The notes beneath the pieces are model-generated. The model worked only from the letters and a program-made list of their open reading frames with translations. It had not been told where the DNA came from and did no database searches. From Spirochaetota bacterium (GTDB taxonomy: Bacteria > Spirochaetota > Spirochaetia > Treponematales > UBA12059), in contig JADFDI010000002.1 of NCBI GenBank assembly GCA_018262985.1, positions 124,001 through 188,000 on the forward strand: DNA of 64,000 nt, in the 5' to 3' direction. Numbering within the stretch: the first letter of the stretch is position 1; each line of letters starts with the position of its first letter. Shown in pieces: positions 11,659-24,911 of this stretch. Made by a program: the position numbers and the translations under genes.

Positions 11659-12801
11659 ATGTGGGACAGCGTACTGGAATTCCTGGGAACGACCGGCTTC
11701 GCCGTGATGGGCTGGAAGGACATCGTGATGATCACGGTGTCCTGCGTCCTCCTCTACCTCGGCATCGTCAAGAAGTTCGAACCCCTGCTCCTCGTGCCCA
11801 TCGCCTTCGGCATGCTCCTCTCGAACCTGCCGCTCGGCGGCATCATGACCGAGCACGCGGTCGTTGACGGCAAGGTCGTGCCCGGCGGGCTCGTGTACTA
11901 CCTTTACCAGGGCGTCAAGCTCGGAATCTACCCGCCGCTCATCTTCATGGGCGTCGGCGCCATGACCGATTTCGGGCCCCTCATCGCCAATCCCAAGAGC
12001 CTGCTCCTCGGCGCGGCCGCGCAGCTCGGCATCTTCCTGACCTACCTCGGCGCGCGCGCCCTCGACTTCGATCCGCAGGCCGCGGGCTCCATCGGCATCA
12101 TCGGCGGCGCGGACGGCCCGACCGCCATCTACCTGACCAGCAAGCTCAAGCCCGAGCTGCTGCCCGCCATCGCCATCGCCGCGTACTCGTACATGGCGCT
12201 CGTGCCGATCATCCAGCCGCCCATCATGCGGCTGCTGACCACGAAGAAGGAGCGGGCCATCGTCATGGACCAGCTCCGCGAGGTGTCGAAGACCGAGAAG
12301 GTCGTCTTCCCCATCACCGTCACCATCCTCGTCGGCCTGCTCCTGCCCTCGGCCGTGCCGCTCGTGGGCTCGCTCATGCTCGGCAACCTCTTCCGCGAGA
12401 CCGGCGTGACCGGCCGGCTCTCGGATACCGCCCAGCACGCGCTCATCAACATCCTGACGATCTTCCTGGGGGTCTCGGTCGGCGCGACCGCGAGCGCGGA
12501 CAAGTTCCTCACGGCCCAGACGCTCATGATCATCGGACTCGGGCTCGCGGCGTTCGCGGTGGGCACCGCGGGCGGCGTGCTGCTCGGCAAGCTCATGAAC
12601 GTGATCTCCGGCGGCAAGATCAACCCGCTCATCGGCTCCGCCGGCGTTTCGGCCGTGCCGATGGCGGCGCGCGTCTCGCAGGTCGAGGGGCAGCGGGAGA
12701 ATCCGAACAACTACCTGCTCATGCATGCCATGGGACCGAACGTCGCGGGCGTCATCGGCTCCGCGATCGCCGCTGGCGTCCTCCTGGCGGTGCTCGGCTG
12801 A
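11659..12801 (+). CDS. mmdB: Sodium-pumping decarboxylase beta subunit (OadB/MmdB)
   Basis: A 380-residue, many-pass membrane protein of the OadB/GcdB/MmdB family, which decarboxylates carboxybiotin and exports Na+ across the cytoplasmic membrane. The signature [15 protein letters not shown] (residues about 150-164) carries the Asp essential for Na+ coupling; [16 protein letters not shown] and the C-terminal stretch with [30 protein letters not shown] are conserved in the family. Last gene of the operon that begins at korD; a terminator follows at 12868-12906. OadB of oxaloacetate decarboxylase is nearly indistinguishable, so the substrate is inferred from the neighbouring mutase and epimerase. 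Confidence 0.93.
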
Positions 12802-14128: not shown

Positions 14129-16492
14129 ATGGGAAAGAAGGGCTTGCTCCAGAAGGCAAAGGCGCTGCAGAAAATCTCCGCGGGTACGCTCGCGAATCCG
14201 CAGGGCAACCTGGATTCCGGAATGCTCGAAGCGGCGCGCGCCGCCGGCATTTCGGGCGAGGACGGCGAGGACATCCTCAAGCGGATCGACGCCATCGCAG
14301 TGGAGAACCGCATCGCCGCACCCGAGGAAGCGCGGATTCCCGCCCTCCGCAGGGGCGTTTTCGTGCCCGCCTTGGTAAACGCCCTCGCCGTGGTGGGCAT
14401 GGCGGTCGCCTTCCTGCTGCTCGCCGCTTTCTTCCGCGAGCGCGAGGCGGATATCGCGAACAACTCCGCGGTGGTGCTCAGCGCCGAGGGTCGCCTCATA
14501 CGCGAGCTCAGGGCCGAGTCCGAAACCTTGATCCGCGAGAAGGACGTCCAGCTCGACGAGATCCGCGATCGCCTCGAATCGCTCGAGAAGGACAGCCTGG
14601 AGCTCGCCAGGAGCTTCGAGGCGCGCTTGCTCGAACGCGAGGGCGAACTCAAGTCCCGCCTCGAGTCCGAGATCGAGGCCGAGCGCGCCCGCTTGCGGGC
14701 CGAAGGTTACGCGGAGGCGGAGATCGAAGCCCGCATAAAGGAATTCGAAACACGAAAGACGGCGGAATACCAGACCGCGCTCGCCTCGTTCCGACTGGCG
14801 CTCGATTCCGAACGGGAAGCGTCCGACGCCAGGATAGCGGCCGCGAAGGCTGAGTACGAGCGCAACCTGGCCGCGGTGGCGGCCGAACGTCGGCGCATCC
14901 AGGACGAGGCGGCGGCGCGGGAAGCCGAGCTGCGCTCCACCCTCGACGCCCGCGTGAAAACGCTGGAAACCGAGCGGGCGCAGGCCAGCGCCGGGCTCGA
15001 AGCCGCCCGAGCCGAACTCGCCGCGTTGCAGGCGAGGCAAGCGAAGGACAAGGCCGCTGAAGAACGGATCGTCGGACTCTACCGTACCGTCCGCCTCGCC
15101 GTCTCGGACCGCCGCTACGAGGACGCCTACGCTGGCGTTTCCGCCCTGTCCGCCTTCCTCGCGGATCCGGAAATCGCCGCTTCCGCCAGCCTCGCCGCCC
15201 GCCGCGAGGCCGACACCTTCATCGCCCAGGCGCTAGCCTCGCTGGTCAAGGCCGAAATAGACCGCGCCAGCGCCGACGCGGCGGGACTCGTGAGGCAGGC
15301 CGAACTCTACGCCCGGGCGCGGGCGGCCGGCGCCCGCGGCGACGAGGCCCTCGCGCGCGGGGATCGCGCCGCCGCCGAGGCCGCGTACCGCGAAGCGGTA
15401 TCGGTCGCTCCCGAGCTCGTTTCCGCCTTCGAATTCGCCTGGAACGACCGCTCCATGGATGCGGCGGTGAACGCGGCCGGCGCCGCGCTCGCCTTCGACC
15501 GCGCGGAAATCGCCTATAAAGCCGGAGACTTCGTGGCCGCCTCGACGTCCTACGTCGAGGCTCTGTCCGCCATGGGTGCGCCCCCGTCCGCGAGCGCGGT
15601 GGCCGCCGCCGCCCTCGAAGGAACTCCCCGCGCCGCGGCGGAGCTTCCCGCCCCCTCTCCCGCGTCCGCGACCGAGCTCGCGGCGGCGAACCGCCTGCTG
15701 GACCGCGGAGCCTGGACCGAAGCGGCCGAAAGCTACATCCGCGTACTGGCGCTCTCCCCCGGCGCGGAGACCGCGACACAGGCGGCGCGCGGCGCGCGGC
15801 GCGCCCTCGAAGGCTGGACCGCGGCCGAGAAGGCGCGCGTCGAGGCCGACCGCTCCCGGATCGCCGAGCTGTCAGCGCGCGCCACCAGGCTCGAGACCGA
15901 GCTCGCCGCCGCCGTCCTTTCGGCCAGCGAGCGGGAGGCGACCATAGCCGAATCGAAGCGCCTGATCGCCTCGCTCGAGGAGGAGCGCGACCGCCTGAAA
16001 CGCGAGAACGCCGAGCTTGCCAGCCGACCGTCGACCGCTCCCGCCCCGTCCCAGACGGCCGCCTCGGGGCCGACGAAGGAAGAATTCGACGCGCTCACGG
16101 CGGAGCGGGACGCCCTCGCCGTGCTCGCCAGACGCATGGACGAACTCGCCGCCGCCTTCAAGGAGTACGCCGTTCGGGAGGACTCGGCCCTCGCGGGATC
16201 GCCGGGCCAGGCTGGCCTTCTCGCCGCGCGGACCGAGCTCGACTCCTTCCTCGGCTCCGGGCTGGTCAGGTCGGCCATGCCCGACCTCCGCGAGCGCGTC
16301 GCCGCCTACGAGGCCGCCTGGCTCGAAGCGGGCCAGAAGGAAGTGGTTTACAACGCCATCGACATCCTGGAAGGCTCGCGCCGCTTCACGGATCCCGTCC
16401 GCCGCAACGCCTGGCTCGACGAGCAGCTCGCCCGTTACGCGGGCAACCAGGCGCTCAAGGACTTCATCGAGACGGTGCGCGCGCTCCGGTAG
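14129..16492 (+). CDS. Membrane-anchored coiled-coil protein with repeat-like C-terminal half, function unknown
   Basis: A 787-residue protein. Residues 1-78 look cytoplasmic, 79-101 form one hydrophobic helix (ALVNALAVVGMAVAFLLLAAFF), and about 105-325 are a long, very charged coiled coil rich in Arg, Glu and Ala. From about 330 the sequence becomes helical repeats resembling tetratricopeptide units (RAAEAAYREAVSVAPELVSAF; WTEAAESYIRVLALSPG), then a second coiled coil (about 585-640), a Ser/Pro/Ala linker and a conserved-looking C-terminal helical domain. No catalytic motif is visible. ATG 14129 is chosen for GGAGGA just upstream; an in-frame extension to 13874 would cross the operator region. 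A weak -10 (TATACT, 14102-14107) precedes it. Probably an envelope scaffold. Confidence 0.8.
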   Translation: MGKKGLLQKAKALQKISAGTLANPQGNLDSGMLEAARAAGISGEDGEDILKRIDAIAVENRIAAPEEARIPALRRGVFVPALVNALAVVGMAVAFLLLAAFFREREADIANNSAVVLSAEGRLIRELRAESETLIREKDVQLDEIRDRLESLEKDSLELARSFEARLLEREGELKSRLESEIEAERARLRAEGYAEAEIEARIKEFETRKTAEYQTALASFRLALDSEREASDARIAAAKAEYERNLAAVAAERRRIQDEAAAREAELRSTLDARVKTLETERAQASAGLEAARAELAALQARQAKDKAAEERIVGLYRTVRLAVSDRRYEDAYAGVSALSAFLADPEIAASASLAARREADTFIAQALASLVKAEIDRASADAAGLVRQAELYARARAAGARGDEALARGDRAAAEAAYREAVSVAPELVSAFEFAWNDRSMDAAVNAAGAALAFDRAEIAYKAGDFVAASTSYVEALSAMGAPPSASAVAAAALEGTPRAAAELPAPSPASATELAAANRLLDRGAWTEAAESYIRVLALSPGAETATQAARGARRALEGWTAAEKARVEADRSRIAELSARATRLETELAAAVLSASEREATIAESKRLIASLEEERDRLKRENAELASRPSTAPAPSQTAASGPTKEEFDALTAERDALAVLARRMDELAAAFKEYAVREDSALAGSPGQAGLLAARTELDSFLGSGLVRSAMPDLRERVAAYEAAWLEAGQKEVVYNAIDILEGSRRFTDPVRRNAWLDEQLARYAGNQALKDFIETVRALR

Positions 16493-16514: not shown

Positions 16515-16540
16515 GAAGGGCGGCCCGTCGGCCGCCCTTC
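16515..16540. terminator. Hairpin between converging genes (terminator)
   Basis: Perfect 11-bp stem GAAGGGCGGCC (16515-16525) with GGCCGCCCTTC (16530-16540) and loop CGTC, lying between the coiled-coil gene and the converging lipoprotein gene. The T-tracts on either side are short and interrupted, so efficiency is uncertain. Confidence 0.6.
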
Positions 16541-16568: not shown

Positions 16569-17693
16569 TCAGTTCCCGAGCTTCTCCGCGGCGAAGGCGA
16601 GCAGGTCCGCGGTGGGAACGCCTTCCACCTGGGCGAAGGCCAGATTGCCAATATCGTCCTTGTTGTCGGTCAGCACCATGAAGCGCGAGAAGACCGAGAT
16701 CCAGGTGGAATCGGTCGTATCCCAGTACTCGAAGGCGAAGCGCCAGCTGCCGGTCGGGAGCCAGCCAAGGTAGGCGCCGGAACCCGAGTATAGATCGGTG
16801 TAGGACCTGCCCGCAGCGAGGAACACCGGCTTGTCAACGGCGTCGTGCACCATCCCGGTAGCCGGCGCTTTCAAGTCGACGATCTTCGATGCCGTGGCGG
16901 CCCCGGGCGCCTGTGCGCGCCAGAGGCTCGGGTCGGGAAGGTTCGGGCTGACGAAATAGGTGCTCGTTGCCAGGTCATAAGCGGCGAAGCCCGGTCCCGT
17001 TGGCGTTACAGGGAACTGATCGATGGGATCGTTGAGGGCAGGTTCGATGTCGCTGTCGATTGTGAACGAGCTGGTGGAAATGCTTCCCCTTCTCGCGTAC
17101 GCGTCGCCGGACTCGCCCATGAGGATTTCCACGAACCTGGTCTGCCCGCCCGGGTCGATGGACGGATCCGACCAGGTGCCGAGGGCGAGCAGGCGCCGGC
17201 TATCCGAGGGATCCGTCAGCGCCGAGCCGAGCAGGGGGTTCACCGAACCTCCATAGATCACCAAGCTTTCAAGCCCTTTCAGGGGATCGCGGTAGACGAA
17301 GACCGTTTCGGATGAACCGGGCATCGGCCCGACGACGGCCGCCTTGCCGAGGGGATTCCCGTCGCCCCAGACCTTCCCTGTTTCCCAAGCGGATTCGCCC
17401 ATGAGTATCGTGGCTATCCTCATGTATCCGTCACCGGGCGTCACCACGTAGCCACCCGGAGTGGCGGGCATGCGGAAGGGCAGGAAATAGGAGAATCCGT
17501 CGTCGGAATCCCCGGCCAGGGCGATGGTGTACGATTTCCTCCACTCCGCGCGGCCATGGTCACCGAAAATGGCGTCCATCCACGTCGATACGCTCAGGGC
17601 CGGGTCGAAGGAAGGCATCCAGCATGAAGCGGACAGCGAAACCAACGCGAGGATGCAAGCGGAAAGGGCGGCGCGGCGCGCGTTAGCTCTCAT
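16569..17693 (-). CDS. Putative lipoprotein, last gene of the cyclase cassette
   Basis: A 374-residue exported protein I do not recognise. The N-terminus has a basic start, a hydrophobic core (LSACILALVSL) and SASC, a relaxed lipobox of the kind accepted in spirochaetes, so Cys24 is the probable lipid-modified residue. The mature part is rich in aromatic residues, Gly and Asp with several WxSD/GxWSD-like elements, suggesting an extracytoplasmic beta-rich fold. Its ATG overlaps the stop of the preceding barrel gene (ATGA), so translation is probably coupled. It pairs with that barrel as the lipoprotein at 18904 pairs with the barrel at 19935. Confidence 0.7.
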   Translation of the reverse strand: MRANARRAALSACILALVSLSASCWMPSFDPALSVSTWMDAIFGDHGRAEWRKSYTIALAGDSDDGFSYFLPFRMPATPGGYVVTPGDGYMRIATILMGESAWETGKVWGDGNPLGKAAVVGPMPGSSETVFVYRDPLKGLESLVIYGGSVNPLLGSALTDPSDSRRLLALGTWSDPSIDPGGQTRFVEILMGESGDAYARRGSISTSSFTIDSDIEPALNDPIDQFPVTPTGPGFAAYDLATSTYFVSPNLPDPSLWRAQAPGAATASKIVDLKAPATGMVHDAVDKPVFLAAGRSYTDLYSGSGAYLGWLPTGSWRFAFEYWDTTDSTWISVFSRFMVLTDNKDDIGNLAFAQVEGVPTADLLAFAAEKLGN

Positions 17694-18907
17694 GGCGCGA
17701 ACCTCACTCCGAAGCGCACGTGGGGAATTTCGATCGCCGTGTATCCTTTCACGAAGAACACGTTGCCCGGGTTCGAGGCGGCGACCAGGTAGCCGTTCGG
17801 TCCGAAGTACCAGTGCATGGCCGCCTCCGCCCAGACGACGAGCTTCCGCGAGGTGCCGTACTCGACGCCGATGGCGGGCGAGAGGCCGAAGGGCGCGATG
17901 GGGTCGAGCATGAACAGGCGGAATCCGGGGAAGCTGAAGCGTGCGAAGGCGCCCGTCGAAACGTACGGCCTGAACGCGGCGTCGGCCGGCGCGAGGCGGG
18001 CGCCGAGGCGGAAGCCTGGCTGGACGAGCGGCAGGAACACGAAGATCGAAGGACCGCCCTCCGGGGGCGGGTCGCGGGGCAGCAGGATGCCCGGGGAGTA
18101 GCTTACCAGCTCGATGCCGGCAAAGGCCCGGTCGGAGAAGAAGCGCCGTTCGTAGCGGAGCACCGGGAACTGCCCCATGAGGAGGCCCACGTCGAAAGAC
18201 CAGCGCGGAAGGGCTTCGTCCGGCAGTTCGAGCGTGCTGCCTTCCGTACCGAAGAAGGCGAAGACGCCGCCCGCGGGATACGAGCCCGGCACCGTGGCTC
18301 GCCAGCGGTAGGTGCTCGGCGCATCCGCTACGATCTCGAGCTCGCCGGATTCGGGGACGATGAGGGGTTTGGGCGAGAAGCCGGAAACCTCGCTGCCGGG
18401 CTTTCCCTTGAGCGTGAAGGCGGTGTAGCGCACCCGCGAGACGGCGGCGGGCAGGGCGGCGACCACTTCGTCCCAGAAGAAACCGGAAAGGTCGCGCTCC
18501 GTGGGCTCGGGAGCCTCGTAGGCGCCCTCGGCGAGGACGTCGCGGGAGAGGGCGTCGAGGTAGCGCCATTCGACCCGCCTGGATCCGGAAGCGCCGGCGG
18601 CCGCGATCTCGAGCACCAGCGCGCAATCCTGCCTGTTGGCTTCGTCGAAGTAGGCGCTCTCGTCGCGGGCGCGGAGCACGCCGGAGACGCCCGGCTCGCG
18701 GGCGAGCGCGAGCGCGAGGCCGCGCAGCCAGCTTTCGCGGTCGGCCGTTCCGCGCGCGAGCGCGACGAGGACGCGGACCTGGCGCGTGGGCGTCGAAACC
18801 GGATCGGCGGAAGGAGCGCCGGCTCCACCGGAGACCGGGTCCTGCGCGACGAGCGTAGCGCAGCCGAGCGCGGCGAGAAGGCCGAGCGCGAACGCGTATC
18901 GCCTCAT
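17690..18907 (-). CDS. Exported protein with N-terminal alpha/beta domain and putative outer-membrane beta-barrel, paralogue 2
   Basis: A 405-residue exported protein (signal MRRYAFALGLLAALGCATLVAQ). The first ~150 mature residues form an alpha/beta-looking domain (QVRVLVALARGTADRESWLRGL; QDCALVLEIAAAG), then a short beta-rich linker, then about 190 residues of alternating hydrophobic/aromatic strands with Gly turns (WSFDVGLLMGQFPVLRYERRFF; FGLSPAIGVEYG), ending in VRFGVRFAP. This is the pattern of a small outer-membrane barrel. The gene at 19935-21185 has the same domain order. ATG 18907 is chosen because it opens a clean signal peptide and sits at the stop of the preceding gene; in-frame codons further upstream would overlap that gene. 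Confidence 0.68.
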   Translation of the reverse strand: MRRYAFALGLLAALGCATLVAQDPVSGGAGAPSADPVSTPTRQVRVLVALARGTADRESWLRGLALALAREPGVSGVLRARDESAYFDEANRQDCALVLEIAAAGASGSRRVEWRYLDALSRDVLAEGAYEAPEPTERDLSGFFWDEVVAALPAAVSRVRYTAFTLKGKPGSEVSGFSPKPLIVPESGELEIVADAPSTYRWRATVPGSYPAGGVFAFFGTEGSTLELPDEALPRWSFDVGLLMGQFPVLRYERRFFSDRAFAGIELVSYSPGILLPRDPPPEGGPSIFVFLPLVQPGFRLGARLAPADAAFRPYVSTGAFARFSFPGFRLFMLDPIAPFGLSPAIGVEYGTSRKLVVWAEAAMHWYFGPNGYLVAASNPGNVFFVKGYTAIEIPHVRFGVRFAP

Positions 18908-19947
18908 TCGGACCACCAAGTGTCGAGCAGGTAGAGGCGGCCGTGCCAACGGTCGAAGACGTACCAGTGCTTCCCGTCGGGGTCGAAGAAGAAGCTCAGG
19001 TCCTCGGTATCCTCGAGTACGTACGAATCGAGCGGGTCGGCGGATGCATCGAGTGACAGCCGTTGCAGGGATTTATTGTAACTGGCGTCCTCCGCGAGCA
19101 TGACGAGACCATCGGCGGTAAGCCAACAGGCGCGGTTGTCCTTCGGCGGTGGGTACGACATGACCAAGGGGCCGGAGTCGACGCTCGGGGCGGAAAGCAG
19201 CGCGGCAAGGTTTTCGAAGCGGTAGACTCCAGCGTTCGCGGAGGTCGAATAGTCGATCCGCAAGTTCACGAACAGCGCGGTGCCCGTCGGGGTCGACAAT
19301 TGCTCGATGTCGAGGACAGCCCCGGGCTCGCCGGTCGACGCGAACAGGACGCTGCTTGGCGTGGATGGCATCGCATAGCCCGCCAGCGCGCTGGCTTCGA
19401 ATAGGTTCAGCAGCGTCGGTTCCGGCCGAAGCACCCGGTACCAAGCGCCGTCGAAGGAGCCGAAGCCGCCGAGCGGTTCATATATGTCCGGATCGGGTGG
19501 CGTGCCGGGAAAAAACCGGACCGTGCAGCCCACCGTCGTGGCTTTGAGTCCGGTGTCGATCCTCGTCTGCCCGACGATGACGGCGCCGTCGGCGTCCTGG
19601 AACATGATCTCGCTCAGCCCCCCGCCGAACCAGGCGAGGGGTTCCAGGCCCGACCCGTCCAGGACGAAAACCGCGCGGCCGCGGTCGCTTTCGGCGAGCA
19701 CGAAGACCCGTTCCTGCCCCGCCTGGGAAAAGCGCTCGACCATGAGGACGTCGGCCTTGGTGGCGTCGAGATTTTCCGCCATGGCCTCCCGGACATCGAA
19801 ACCCGACCGGACAAGGCCGAGCCATTCGGGACCGTAGGAGACGAACCACCAGTCCACCGTGCAGGTGCCCGCGGAGAGCGCGGCCAGGGCGAGGGCGACG
19901 AGGCGAAGGCGCCGGGCGAAGCCGGACCCGCCTTTCAATACTTCCAT
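18904..19947 (-). CDS. Putative lipoprotein of the cyclase cassette
   Basis: A 347-residue exported protein with no family I can name. The signal region (RRLRLVALALAALSAGTC) ends in AGTC, a relaxed spirochaetal lipobox; Cys32 would carry the lipid. The mature part starts with Trp-rich sequence (VDWWFVSYGPEWLGL) and continues as beta-strand-like repeats with ESDRGRAVFVLDGSGLEPLAWFGG and similar blocks, compatible with a propeller-like fold. The ATG at 19947 overlaps the upstream barrel gene by 13 bp; the stop overlaps the next barrel gene. It looks like the functional partner of its neighbours rather than an independent gene. Confidence 0.7.
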   Translation of the reverse strand: MEVLKGGSGFARRLRLVALALAALSAGTCTVDWWFVSYGPEWLGLVRSGFDVREAMAENLDATKADVLMVERFSQAGQERVFVLAESDRGRAVFVLDGSGLEPLAWFGGGLSEIMFQDADGAVIVGQTRIDTGLKATTVGCTVRFFPGTPPDPDIYEPLGGFGSFDGAWYRVLRPEPTLLNLFEASALAGYAMPSTPSSVLFASTGEPGAVLDIEQLSTPTGTALFVNLRIDYSTSANAGVYRFENLAALLSAPSVDSGPLVMSYPPPKDNRACWLTADGLVMLAEDASYNKSLQRLSLDASADPLDSYVLEDTEDLSFFFDPDGKHWYVFDRWHGRLYLLDTWWSE

Positions 19948-21185
19948 GCGACGCTCCCGAGGAGGAGGGGACCGTCCCGGTCCATCCATCCCTGACTGAC
20001 GACGCCCGAGGCCAGGCCGAACGAGTAGGGAATCCGTGTCTCGATGCCGAAGGCGTAGGAACCCGTATGGTATTCGAGGAGCAGCGAAAAGGCGTCGAAG
20101 GCGAGATCGAAGTAGGGCTTTCCGTCAGCTACGAAGGTGAGCATGGACGCGAGCCCGGTGGCCGCTCCGAGCCGGAAGGACCAGCCGGGTGGGGTGAGGT
20201 AGAGGCCCGCTCCCGCGCGGACTTCCCAGATCCATGGGGCTCCGCCGAGGCCGTAGCTCGCGAGCGTGAAGAGCGCGTTGTCGAGCCTGAAGAACGCGAA
20301 GTCGGGTATGAGGGCGGGGCGGTATTCGAAACCGAGGCCGAAAAGCCGGCCCCGTCCGGCACTGAGGACGAGCGAGCCGCGGCTGCGCGGCACCAGGCGG
20401 GGCAGGGCGACGCCCTTCCCGTCGTCACGGGGGCGCACCGTCAGGTGCGCAGGGTAGGAACCTTCCCGTTCGACGGTGAAGTCGGCGCGCTCGCCGACGC
20501 GGAGGGGCAGGTAGGGCGCGACGAGTAGGCCTCCCTCGATGACGCCGAGCGGGAGCGAGGCACCCGCGCTTCCGCCGCCCAGCGAGACGCTCGCGCCTTC
20601 GTCCTTCGAGCGGAACGTCAGCGGCTCGGACAGGCGGGGCGGCGGCAGTCCGGCTTCGAGCGCGCGCGCCAGCTCGGCGGCGCCGGAGGCGGCCGAGTCC
20701 TCGATCAACTTGAGCGCGGAAAGGCCCGCGTAGGCCGACCAAGCGTCGCCGCCGAGCATGGCTCCGTCGCGGGCGTCGTAGACGGCGATGCGCCAGGCGA
20801 CCCGGTTTCCTTCGAGGCGCGCGTCCACGAGCGCCACGACGAAGCACCCGGCTTCGCGGGCGAAGAGCGCGGCGCGCGTAGGCTCGTGGCTCCCCCCTTC
20901 GATGCCGGCGGGCGCGGCGGCGAGGGTCGAGGCGATGCCGCGCGCGGAAAGTTCCGCGACGAAGGCGGTGGACAGGGAGGACAGGAAGTTCCCCGCGTCC
21001 CCCTCGCGCGCGAGCGCGGGCGCCACCAGCACGGTCTCGTCGAGCTTGCCCGCGGCGCGGAGGACGGGCGCGGTTTCGCCCGGGACCTCCCCGGCGGACG
21101 CGTCCTGCCCGTGGATCCGCGAGAATGCCGCGAGCGACAGGAGGAGCGACGCGAGCGCGAAGCGGCGCGGCCGGAACGGTTTCAT
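19935..21185 (-). CDS. Exported protein with N-terminal alpha/beta domain and putative outer-membrane beta-barrel, paralogue 1
   Basis: A 416-residue exported protein: signal peptide (RRFALASLLLSLAAFSRIHGQ), an N-terminal alpha/beta domain of about 150 residues (ETVLVAPALAREGDAGNFLSS; GCFVVALVDARLEGNRVAWRI) that recalls CsgG/LpoB- or TolB-N-like folds, a beta-rich linker, then a C-terminal region of amphipathic strands (LFGLGFEYRPALIPDFAFFRL; DAFSLLLEYHTGSYAFGIET) ending with WKY, the aromatic terminus common in outer-membrane barrels. The start at 21185 overlaps the cyclase stop (ATGA). Paralogous in layout to 17690-18907. Function unknown; the fold comparison is by eye only. Confidence 0.7.
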   Translation of the reverse strand: MKPFRPRRFALASLLLSLAAFSRIHGQDASAGEVPGETAPVLRAAGKLDETVLVAPALAREGDAGNFLSSLSTAFVAELSARGIASTLAAAPAGIEGGSHEPTRAALFAREAGCFVVALVDARLEGNRVAWRIAVYDARDGAMLGGDAWSAYAGLSALKLIEDSAASGAAELARALEAGLPPPRLSEPLTFRSKDEGASVSLGGGSAGASLPLGVIEGGLLVAPYLPLRVGERADFTVEREGSYPAHLTVRPRDDGKGVALPRLVPRSRGSLVLSAGRGRLFGLGFEYRPALIPDFAFFRLDNALFTLASYGLGGAPWIWEVRAGAGLYLTPPGWSFRLGAATGLASMLTFVADGKPYFDLAFDAFSLLLEYHTGSYAFGIETRIPYSFGLASGVVSQGWMDRDGPLLLGSVAWKY

Positions 21186-22843
21186 TTGTGGGTGAGGACC
21201 TCGACCCCGTCCCAGTCAGGCGGCGGCGGATTCCGGGCGTAGCCCTCGGCGCGCCGGAGCAGTTCCGCGGCGGGGAAGTCGTCCGGGCCGAGCAGTCGGA
21301 CCGCCTCCCGGAAGCCGTCCGCCGCTTCCCGGAAGCGCATCGACCAATAGTGGTCGCAGGCTTCGGCGTGCGCCTTCCAGCCTTCCTCCTCCAGCTCGTC
21401 CAGCTCCTTGCGGACCGTGTAGATCCGCACGCCCTGCTTCTTGCCCTTGACGGCCACCTTGTCGAGCAGGCGGCAGGGCAGGAGGTCCTTGACCTTGTAG
21501 TGGACCGATTCGGAGATGAGTAGCGGTTGCTTGTATTCCTTGGTCTGGCCCTCGAGCCGGCTCGCGAGGTTGACGTTGTCGCCGATGACCGTGTAGTTCA
21601 TCTTCTTGTCGCAGCCGATGTTGCCGACGGTCACGACGCCGTACGCTATGCCGACGCCGATATGGAATTCCGGCTGGCCGTCCCGTCGCTGCAGCTCGTT
21701 GAAGCGGTCGAGGGCCTCGGTCATCTCGAGGCCGGCGAGGACCGACTGGTAGGCGTCGTCGTCCCGCTTCACCGGCGCGCCCCAGAAGGCCATGATCGCG
21801 TCGCCTATGTACTTGTCGACGATGCCGTTCCGCGCGGCGATCACGTCGACCATGATCTCGAAATAGCGGTTGAGCGAGGTGACGAGGTCGTAGGGGGCCA
21901 TGGCCTCGCTGATGGACGTGAAGCCGCGGATGTCCGAGAAGAGAATCGCGACCACGCGGTCGTCGCCAACCAGCGCCTCTTCCGGGTTCGCGAAGACCTG
22001 GTCGATGACCTCCTTCGGCACGTAGAGCTGGAAGAGGTTGCGGATCTTCGTTTCCTTCTTCTGGGCCAGGACCGCCTCGAAGGCGTAGCGCTTGATGCGC
22101 CCGTAGGCCTGGTCGAGCGCGCCGAGCATCAGGTTGAAGGTGTGGGAAAGATGGCCGATCTCGTCGTCGTACGCCACGACCACCCGGCCAGAGAGCTCGT
22201 TCGACGCGATGATGCGCTTCATGGCGCCCACCACCGACTCGAGCGGCTTGACGAGGTAGCCTACGAAAAGAAGGAGGAGGAGCGCGGCGACGACCACGCT
22301 GCCGGCCAGGATGATCACCGACTGGCGGGCGATCGCGTTGACGTCCGAATAGAACGCGTCGCGCCGTTCGCTGGCTACGACGAACCATCCGAAGGGACCG
22401 AAGGGAAAGCCGGCGCCGACCCGCTCGGCGCCCTCCAGCGTGAAGTCGGTGAAGGATCGCTTCCCGGCTTCCGCGAGGGCGGCCAAGGCGCGCCGCTCGG
22501 CCTCGGACGGCAGGACGGGGCCGCTCCTCATGACGGGCGTCCCGGAGCGGTCGACGGCGAACACGAGCTCGGTCTCCGAGCGGACCACCGAGGTCGCGAA
22601 GGACTCGACCGCCGCCTTCGCGGCGTCCACCATCTCGGGCCGCGACGCGGCGTCGTTCTCGACGAGCAGGTTCCACTGGCTTTCGGCGTACTTCTCGATC
22701 TCGTAGGCCTTGAAGCCGAGGAAGTCCGTCGCGAGGCGGGTGACGGCGCTCGAGGCGGAGAAGAAGCTCGAGGCGCCGCCGATCAGGATGGCGGCGACGA
22801 GGATCGGGAGGACGACGAGGAGTATCTTGAGGCGTATGCTCAT
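21182..22843 (-). CDS. Membrane-bound class III adenylate/guanylate cyclase with HAMP domain
   Basis: A 553-residue receptor cyclase. Transmembrane helix 1 is at residues 7-29, an extracytoplasmic sensor of about 140 residues follows, helix 2 is at about 174-198, then a HAMP linker. The cyclase domain (about 295-465) has FSDIRGFTSISEAM and DKYIGDAIMAFWGAP, giving both metal-binding Asp residues, and YTVIGDNVNLASRLE near the end. The final ~85 residues are helical and TPR-like. It makes cAMP (or cGMP) in response to an external signal. It is the first gene of a five-gene minus-strand unit, overlapping the following barrel gene, so sensor and envelope proteins are probably co-produced. No cyclic-nucleotide receptor is in the window. 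Confidence 0.9.
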   Translation of the reverse strand: MSIRLKILLVVLPILVAAILIGGASSFFSASSAVTRLATDFLGFKAYEIEKYAESQWNLLVENDAASRPEMVDAAKAAVESFATSVVRSETELVFAVDRSGTPVMRSGPVLPSEAERRALAALAEAGKRSFTDFTLEGAERVGAGFPFGPFGWFVVASERRDAFYSDVNAIARQSVIILAGSVVVAALLLLLFVGYLVKPLESVVGAMKRIIASNELSGRVVVAYDDEIGHLSHTFNLMLGALDQAYGRIKRYAFEAVLAQKKETKIRNLFQLYVPKEVIDQVFANPEEALVGDDRVVAILFSDIRGFTSISEAMAPYDLVTSLNRYFEIMVDVIAARNGIVDKYIGDAIMAFWGAPVKRDDDAYQSVLAGLEMTEALDRFNELQRRDGQPEFHIGVGIAYGVVTVGNIGCDKKMNYTVIGDNVNLASRLEGQTKEYKQPLLISESVHYKVKDLLPCRLLDKVAVKGKKQGVRIYTVRKELDELEEEGWKAHAEACDHYWSMRFREAADGFREAVRLLGPDDFPAAELLRRAEGYARNPPPPDWDGVEVLTHK

Positions 22844-22914: not shown

Positions 22915-22944
22915 AAAAGGGCCGCCCGCGCGAGCGGACGGCCC
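22915..22944 (-). terminator. Terminator of hflKC
   Basis: Minus-strand hairpin: 11-bp stem (22934-22944 with 22919-22929, one G-U pair) with a 4-nt loop, followed by TTTT (22918-22915). It lies just past the hflC stop. Confidence 0.75.
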
Positions 22945-22962: not shown

Positions 22963-23943
22963 CTAGCGGCCCGACGGCCCGTACAGGAACTGGAAGTAGT
23001 CGAGCTCGGTCGACATGGTCTTCGAGAAGCTCGGCATGGTCTGCTTGTACGACTCGAGGGCGCGCCAGAACGAGTAGAAGCCCGGGTCGCGGCCGTAGCT
23101 CCGCGCGTAGATGGCGCTGGCCTGCGCGTCCGCCGCGCCCTTCAAGGTCTCGGCCTTCTCGTAGGCGGCCGACAGGATGGTGCGCTGCTCGTTCTCGAGC
23201 TTGCCGAGCCACTCCGCCTTCTTGCCCTCGCCGAGGCTCCGGAACGCCTGCGCGATCTGGTTGCGCTCCTTGATCATGCGGCTGTAGACGCTCTCGGTCA
23301 GCTCCTCCGAATACTTGATCTGGCGCGGCACTACGTCGATCACCTCGATGCCGTACTCGGGCACGAGGCGCGCGACTTCGACGAGCATCTCGTTCGAGAG
23401 CTTCTCGCGGCCTTTCGAGATAAGCTCGAAGCTCGACTCGGTCTGCGTGAGCTGCCTGAGGCTGTCGGAGTCGGCCGCGTCCCCGGTCTCGAAGGTTTCG
23501 ACGTTCGTCGATTCCATGATCACGTTGGAGTTGCGGACCGCCTCGCGGAGGAAGTTCTGGCTGATGATGGTCCGGACCGCGCTGTCGATGACGTCGTCGA
23601 GGCGGCCGTAGGCGTCGTTGAGCGTGCTGACCGACTCGTAGAACTTGACCGGGTCGGCTATTCGCCAGCGGGCGGTCATGTCCACGAAGATGAACTGGTT
23701 CTCCTTGGTCGGGATGCGCTGCGGCTCCCCGTCCCAGGGCAGGATCTTCTTCGTGTAGACGACGACGTTGTCGAGGAAGGGGCTCTTGAACTTGAGGCCC
23801 GCCTCGGTGTGGGTGGCGACGATCTGGCCGAGCCGGACCACGACCGCCTGCTGCCCCTCGTAGAGCACGAAGAAGGGACCGATGACGAGGAACACGACGA
23901 GCAGCACGGCGATGGCCACGAGCGCGATGATGAGCTTCTTCAT
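22963..23943 (-). CDS. hflC: HflC, SPFH/prohibitin-family membrane protease modulator
   Basis: A 326-residue band-7 protein: one N-terminal transmembrane helix (residues 3-26, LIIALVAIAVLLVVFLVIGPFFV), then an SPFH domain beginning EGQQAVVVRLGQI and a long helical C-terminal region with EVIDVVPRQIKYSEELTESVYSRM and ERNQIAQAFRSLGEGKKAEW. With HflK it forms the large periplasmic cage around FtsH and moderates degradation of membrane proteins. Its start overlaps the hflK stop (ATGA). The region after the SPFH domain includes an Asp/Ser/Glu-rich insertion near residue 150. A terminator follows at 22915-22944. Confidence 0.93.
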   Translation of the reverse strand: MKKLIIALVAIAVLLVVFLVIGPFFVLYEGQQAVVVRLGQIVATHTEAGLKFKSPFLDNVVVYTKKILPWDGEPQRIPTKENQFIFVDMTARWRIADPVKFYESVSTLNDAYGRLDDVIDSAVRTIISQNFLREAVRNSNVIMESTNVETFETGDAADSDSLRQLTQTESSFELISKGREKLSNEMLVEVARLVPEYGIEVIDVVPRQIKYSEELTESVYSRMIKERNQIAQAFRSLGEGKKAEWLGKLENEQRTILSAAYEKAETLKGAADAQASAIYARSYGRDPGFYSFWRALESYKQTMPSFSKTMSTELDYFQFLYGPSGR

Positions 23944-24911
23944 CGGGTGCCTCCGGTCGTGCCGAGGTTCTTGATCGGCAGGAAGCTGCCGAGCTCGCTG
24001 TCGATGAGGTCGACGTCGGAATCGGGCCCGAAGACCTGCTCCATCATCTCGTAGTAGAGCCGCTCGCGGGTGACCGCGGGCGCCTTGACGTACTCGGCCA
24101 GCACGGCGTCGAAGCGAGCGACGTCTCCGCGCGCCTTGTTGACGCGCTCGGTCGCGTAGCCCTGCGCCACCTGGATGATCCGGTCGGCCTCGCCGCGGGC
24201 CCGCGGAATCTCGGTGTTGTAGGCTTCCTTGCCCTCGTTGATCAGGCGGTTCATGTCCTGGATGGCCTTGTTGACGTCTTCGAAGGCGGCCTGCACGCCG
24301 GCTGGCGGCACGATGTTCTGGAGCTTCACCGCGATGACCTTGATGCCCATGCCGTAGCGGGCGAAGGTCTCGTTCATGAGCGCGAGGCCCTGGAACTCGA
24401 TGTTGAGCCGCTCGGAGCCGATGACGTCGAGGATGGTGCGGTCGCCGACCAGCTTGTTGATGACCGACTGCGAGATGTCGCGGATGGTCCGGTGGCGCTC
24501 CTCGACGTTGAACTGCCAGGCGCGCGCGTCCTCGATGCGGTACTGGATGATCCATTCGACGTCGACGATGTTGAGGTCGCCGGTCAGCATCGTGGATTCC
24601 TCGGGGAACGTGGCGGACGAGTAGGTGGTCTGCGCGCCGGACTGCTCGGTCCGGAACCCGAACTGCTCGGTCTGGACGACCTTGGTCTTGATGTTGTAGT
24701 TGCGCTGGATGCCGAAGGGCGCCTTCCAGTGCAGCCCCGGTTCCGCGATCCGGGTGAATTTGCCGAGGGTCGTGACGACCGCCTGCTCGGTCTGGTCCAC
24801 CACGAAGACGCTGGTTCCGAGGAACCCGAGCGCCGCGAGGGCTACCAGCACGAGGACGATGGTCCCGGCCTTGATCGGCAAGCGCGGCGGCGTGACGTTG
24901 CGTTCCGCCAT
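23940..24911 (-). CDS. hflK: HflK, SPFH/prohibitin-family membrane protease modulator
   Basis: A 323-residue band-7 protein with a short cytoplasmic start, a transmembrane helix at about residues 17-36 (TIVLVLVALAALGFLGTSVFV) and the SPFH domain from VVDQTEQAVVTTLGKF. NKARGDVARFDAVLAEY and VTRERLYYEMMEQVF are typical HflK C-terminal helices. The Gly-rich cytoplasmic extension seen in proteobacterial HflK is missing, as in other compact forms. AAAGGAGG lies 5 bases before ATG 24911. First of two coupled genes with hflC. Confidence 0.93.
   Translation of the reverse strand: MAERNVTPPRLPIKAGTIVLVLVALAALGFLGTSVFVVDQTEQAVVTTLGKFTRIAEPGLHWKAPFGIQRNYNIKTKVVQTEQFGFRTEQSGAQTTYSSATFPEESTMLTGDLNIVDVEWIIQYRIEDARAWQFNVEERHRTIRDISQSVINKLVGDRTILDVIGSERLNIEFQGLALMNETFARYGMGIKVIAVKLQNIVPPAGVQAAFEDVNKAIQDMNRLINEGKEAYNTEIPRARGEADRIIQVAQGYATERVNKARGDVARFDAVLAEYVKAPAVTRERLYYEMMEQVFGPDSDVDLIDSELGSFLPIKNLGTTGGTR

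Follow-up and report, generated by a model that had tools for sequence, protein, structure and literature searches.

A cyclase-barrel-lipoprotein operon and its coiled-coil partner in Spirochaetia: a candidate envelope-spanning receptor adenylate cyclase

The window analysed here is a 64,000-nucleotide stretch of DNA (69% GC) from a 3.44 Mb Spirochaetota genome, whose closest named relative is the MAG Spirochaetales bacterium Zod_Metabat.547. It contains a cassette of five minus-strand open reading frames (ORFs) in the order cyc, b1, l1, b2 and l2, all inside positions 16569–22843, together with a convergent sixth gene, coil, and two hairpins that bracket the operon:

14129..16492, plus strand: coil, sixth gene, convergent to l2
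16515..16540, minus strand: terminator-like hairpin between l2 and coil, just downstream of the operon (11 pairs, 9 GC)
16569..17693, minus strand: l2, 374 aa, lipoprotein with a conserved lipobox motif
17690..18907, minus strand: b2, 405 aa, b1 paralogue, predicted outer-membrane barrel
18904..19947, minus strand: l1, 347 aa, lipoprotein, predicted beta-propeller
19935..21185, minus strand: b1, 416 aa, predicted outer-membrane barrel protein
21182..22843, minus strand: cyc, 553 aa, HAMP and class III cyclase
22922..22937, minus strand: terminator-like hairpin just upstream of the operon, setting hflC apart from the cassette

Adjacent genes overlap by 4 bp (ATGA) at the cyc-b1, l1-b2 and b2-l2 junctions and by 13 bp at b1-l1. 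In relatives, start codons that give a 4-bp overlap occur at 27 of 34 cyc-b1, 12 of 23 b1-l1, 15 of 21 l1-b2 and 18 of 20 b2-l2 junctions. Because the overlaps are conserved among relatives, they are not due to chance. The head-to-tail overlap of cyclase, barrel, lipoprotein, barrel and lipoprotein genes described in the first-pass annotation is thus confirmed by the ORF coordinates and the conserved junctions. Two Band_7 genes (hflK/hflC-like; 22963–24911) lie directly upstream, beyond the hairpin, an arrangement also seen in several relatives from families f1 and f4. The beta subunit of a Na+-transporting oxaloacetate decarboxylase is encoded nearby (11659–12801).

Of the five cassette proteins, cyc is the only one with Pfam support (Guanylate_cyc, 3.6e-25, 89 bits versus the Pfam cut-off of 21.9; HAMP, 2.9e-7), and b1, l1, b2 and l2 matched no Pfam family at E ≤ 1 and no NCBIfam family, so the present analysis characterises gene families that both collections leave blank. 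The cyclase has two transmembrane segments, a periplasmic sensor (residues ~30–175) that matched no Pfam family, a HAMP domain (193–244), a class III domain (298–476) and a conserved C-terminal tail. Catalysis by class III cyclases involves two metal Asp residues, a substrate Lys, and transition-state Asn and Arg residues. In the alignment of cyc with 35 relatives, D304, K344, D348, T418, N425 and R429 are invariant, and the K344/T418 pair, with T418 in the purine site, suggests ATP specificity and class IIIb. Judged by its catalytic domain and these residues, cyc is a receptor-type HAMP class III adenylate cyclase with cAMP as its predicted product. Fifteen cNMP-binding domains are encoded in the source genome.

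The b1 protein starts with a signal peptide, and its AlphaFold2 model, built on 36 sequences (pLDDT 84.1), shows a TolB-N/FlgT/PelC-like domain (49–178), an Ig/PEGA-like segment (~190–250) and an OmpA-type barrel of eight strands (268–416). Its barrel matches OprF (Z 18.2) and OmpA (Z 16.8), and its N-domain matches FlgT (Z 12.2) and the TolB N-domain (Z 11.3); Foldseek and VIA-align rows were used just to name folds and not for family membership. Residues 190–250 had no PEGA (PF08308) match at E ≤ 1 and are PEGA-like only in position and strand pattern. The paralogue b2 has the same layout (hhalign b1-b2 probability 94.9, E 4.5e-8, 264 columns), and its only match in the PDB profile search was a weak one to OmpW (E 0.3). 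By the b1 model and the profile comparison, b1 and b2 are bipartite: each joins a predicted outer-membrane barrel to sizeable TolB-N-like and Ig/PEGA-like modules on the periplasmic side. The barrels proposed in the first-pass annotation thus hold as predictions, the b1 model giving a barrel and not a soluble globular domain. Its lipoproteins hold as well, the lipobox cysteines being conserved in both l1 (C29) and l2. The l1 model is a beta-propeller (pLDDT 85.1, pTM 0.81; Z 13.5 to NHL/WD40 propellers), and a WW pair near its C-terminus is invariant in 30 relatives. In every aligned l1 orthologue this pair stands at the end or within two residues of it (LRTWW-like ending; 18904–18918). In l2, the lipobox motif SASCW..FDP is conserved, and a PDB profile search for its fold gave no match. 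Comparison of l1 with l2 found no homology, and this candidate relationship was rejected.

The sixth gene encodes a protein with a cytosolic head (motif GISxEDxxEIL), one transmembrane segment (82–100), a periplasmic coiled coil (~105–310) that could be ~30 nm long if straight (~200 residues), a TPR-like region and a C-terminal domain (~655–787; hereafter, C-domain). In relatives, coil is conserved alongside the cassette as part of the same gene set. The five genes first proposed as the unit do exist, and the functional unit is larger, since it includes coil (14129–16492, plus strand). In a sample of 393 genomes of the phylum, 40 had both cyc and coil, 17 had cyc only and one had coil only, and within class Spirochaetia the cyc orthologue and coil were present in exactly the same 35 genomes (35/35), on one contig and at most about 7 kb apart in 25 of them. 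At loci that lack the cassette (L177–L181, L189, L190 and L196), cyc and coil are adjacent and often divergent; therefore, cyc and coil form the core, to which the barrel/lipoprotein operon was added. The pairing extends to other classes and predates this operon, which was itself already present early in the class. In cassette-free genomes, PEGA-plus-TPR proteins adjoin the cyc-coil pair (L178:6571–7710, L181:1360–2451, L183:5566–6879, L185:10207–11508). The coil head is a CheW-like domain that passes the Pfam cut-off at one outgroup-class locus (L184:3220–5457; PF01584, 25.8 bits versus 23.5), scores below the cut-off for CheW at L183 (17.1 bits) and is CheW-like in L185 too. These outgroup heads suggest a tie to chemotaxis arrays. 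No CheW domain was detectable by Pfam in the coil head of the window.

The order cyc-b1-l1-b2-l2, for which the first-pass annotation had proposed a search in Spirochaetota, is found again in nine Spirochaetia families, four in the order of the window (f1, f3, f4 and f5, the last probably Breznakiellaceae) and five in the class (f6, f8, f12, f18 and f22, with the f22 locus cut by a contig end). Within the window's own genus, each of the three genomes carries all or part of the cassette. The l2 gene of Spirochaeta thermophila, which we take to be the species of genomes G399 and G440, and the l1 gene of Salinispira pacifica were recognised by position and lipobox, not by profile. Cultured strains with the cassette include Treponema caldaria (G013, strain H1; PMC3739177) and S. 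pacifica (G569; PMC4511686). A maximum-likelihood tree built from 64 cyclases of the cassette type groups every lipoprotein-less cassette (cyc-b1-b2) in one clade (support 100/99) and every f5 cyclase that lacks the other four genes in a second (100/100). With a root that is not secure, both clades are nested among full cassettes, and a single loss is the simplest reading of the tree. The strict coupling first proposed is therefore borne out as an operon with conserved overlaps and is not absolute, one f5 clade having kept the cyclase and apparently lost all four partners. Cyclases without these genes, which had been named as a potential refutation, thus count in part against the first proposal; they come from order-level relatives in one derived clade, and their state looks like a derived loss.

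A diverged barrel-lipoprotein quartet, followed by one more lipoprotein, was found at L120:7255–12060 in genome G031, in which neither cyc nor coil was detected. A second, diverged module (L138:8860–14184, L148:2032–7223 and L139) consists of a HAMP cyclase, a coil, a lipoprotein with an Ig domain and a protein that probably forms a barrel, and its coil has a detectable C-domain at two of the three loci. A link to Treponema pallidum was considered and rejected: the single cyclase of G014 (1,139,633 bp), a genome of the syphilis group, lies at 517 kb, belongs to a different cluster and is found without b1, b2, l1, l2 or coil.

The coil C-domain tracks the barrel genes. It is present in 40 of the 40 scored coils that were assigned to b1/b2 genes (by shared genome, not by neighbourhood, in relocated cases) and in none of the 24 coils unlinked to barrels. 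Genomes with two coils show the same division, with one coil that has the C-domain and one that lacks it in G477 (L113 and L196, respectively) and likewise in G028, G048, G052 and G063. Counted by genome within the class, a C-domain coil is present in 23 of the 24 genomes with barrel genes (exception: G071) and in none of the 11 without. The association has p-values of 4e-18 by locus and 3e-8 by genome, both of which ignore relatedness, and perhaps two or three independent events underlie the correlation. The natural reading is that the C-domain would meet the barrel proteins in the periplasm. The TPR region of coil was tried as a marker of the lipoproteins and rejected; the pattern looks clean within f5, but L113, L177 and L178 depart from it.

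To our knowledge, little is known about how spirochaetes sense the state of their outer membrane, and this conserved gene block, carried by many spirochaetes, looks like a so far undescribed route for passing information on the state of the outer envelope into the cell. The best explanation, to which we assign a probability of roughly 0.5, is an envelope-spanning receptor adenylate cyclase. Its components and their association are given, by sequence or prediction, by gene order, folds, catalytic residues, co-occurrence and the tie of the C-domain to the barrels; we infer docking, the direction of signalling, the stimulus and the cAMP target. The cyclase would sit in the inner membrane, where HAMP would relay signals from its periplasmic sensor to a cAMP-producing class III catalytic dimer. 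The partner protein, coil, would be held by one transmembrane anchor, its head in the cytosol and its rod of sufficient length to span the periplasm. In the outer membrane, the eight-strand barrels of b1 and b2 would anchor these proteins so that their TolB-N-like and Ig/PEGA-like modules reach into the periplasm, and l2 and the beta-propeller l1 would join them. These outer-membrane parts would dock on the C-terminal region of coil, and occupancy or strain of the dock, set by the state of the outer membrane or an external ligand, would change cyclase activity via coil, with the cAMP read by some of the fifteen cNMP-binding domains. This model is supported because gene order is conserved, cyc and coil co-occur, the C-domain tracks the barrels and the catalytic residues are invariant; the cNMP-binding domains, the repeat of the theme in the second module and the PEGA proteins beside outgroup cyc and coil support it further. 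It is weakened by the small number of independent C-domain events, the same-genome assignment of coils and the fact that no C-domain coil was found in G071. The broader proposal of a phylum-old transenvelope machine, in which barrel/propeller complexes mechanically or allosterically control a cyclase through a coiled-coil rod in a way that no described system is wired, is put forward more tentatively.

The chief rival, which we consider somewhat unlikely, is that two modules share one locus, with cyc and coil forming a self-contained inner-membrane sensor and the quartet an outer-membrane structural or transport unit that operon coupling ties to them in expression, not in activity. Since a standalone f5 clade exists, the cyclase can act without barrels, and G031, which has the quartet but neither cyclase nor coil, shows that the quartet can act on its own. 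Both facts count against the envelope-spanning receptor and fit the two-module reading, as does the occurrence of cyc and coil without the quartet in outgroups, and the four quartet members may be no more than envelope proteins under common regulation. Against this rival stand the C-domain in 40/40 barrel-linked and 0/24 other coils, the association repeated in a diverged paralogous module and the gene order conserved class-wide.

Spirochaete flagella are located between the two membranes, and a reversed flow, in which the output of cyclase and coil drives an outer-envelope or motility machine and coil is the effector (periplasmic events being controlled by cAMP or by a CheW-like head such as that of outgroup coils), would fit the CheW-like heads of outgroup coils, the resemblance of the b1 N-domain to flagellar FlgT and the rapid change in motility caused by a photoactivated adenylate cyclase in Leptospira kobayashii (PMC9043183). 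We judge it improbable, because the fold behind the FlgT resemblance is shared widely, no flagellar gene was recognised at the locus and the coil head of the window has no detectable CheW domain. Even less probable is a system for taking up nutrients or ions through an OmpW-like channel under the control of a regulatory cyclase: although spirochaete eight-strand barrels have often been proposed as small-molecule channels (PMC8407342), an OmpA-type barrel is narrow, the two barrel proteins are paralogues that each carry large domains in the periplasm and no inner-membrane transporter was recognised in the conserved block. Nothing points to secretion, and the secretion apparatus suggested in the first-pass annotation was dropped.

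We found no description of the cassette in the open-access papers searched, in agreement with the earlier failure to match it to a described system. In YfiBNR (DgcN; Pseudomonas and E. coli), partners in the periplasm and an outer-membrane lipoprotein report envelope state and thereby set the activity of an inner-membrane HAMP cyclase. The envelope-spanning receptor would work alike, with an inner-membrane HAMP cyclase and envelope partners. However, YfiBNR has a GGDEF output, whereas here the HAMP protein carries a Guanylate_cyc domain (class III, cAMP-type), and barrels, a propeller lipoprotein and a coiled-coil protein as long as the periplasm is wide come in addition. A YfiR-family periplasmic protein had no Pfam or NCBIfam match among b1, l1, b2, l2 and coil, and the Pal/OmpA-like lipoprotein that marks YfiB had no OmpA-family match in l1 or l2 at E ≤ 1. 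As judged from these searches, the cassette is not a YfiBNR member, no tested defining feature being common to both.

Likeness to Tol-Pal lies in the two folds of TolB, TolB-N (the b1 N-domain) and the beta-propeller (l1). In TolB both are in one protein, whereas here TolB-N is fused to a barrel; membership fails because the N-domain and propeller are on separate proteins. Reading of gene calls recognised no tolQRA or pal in the conserved block, whose flanking genes were partly Pfam-searched. The eight-strand barrel of b1 (Z 16.8–18.2) resembles OmpA and OprF, but its periplasmic part is N-terminal and TolB-N/PEGA-like, its barrel is C-terminal and the OmpA peptidoglycan-binding domain had no Pfam match in b1. 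In RcsF-OmpA-IgaA, an outer-membrane barrel and a lipoprotein signal to an inner-membrane relay; no part is homologous to the cassette, and the output is a phosphorelay instead of a cyclase. LprA of L. kobayashii is, like cyc, a spirochaete adenylate cyclase, but it is light-responsive (photoactivated; PMC9043183), whereas cyc has a periplasmic sensor, HAMP and envelope partners. If the proposed model is correct, cyclases can be wired to outer-membrane barrels via a coiled-coil rod, and a defined gene set found in cultured strains such as T. caldaria makes outer-membrane-to-cAMP signalling directly testable.

A cyc-like sensor and HAMP (35% identity, residues 2–262) also occur with an HD output in place of the cyclase (HD_5, HD-GYP-like), both at L004:1489–2883 (plus strand) and in the source genome itself (C16:11526–12308). 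By this comparison, the cyc-type sensor is swapped between two predicted second-messenger outputs, cyclase and HD.
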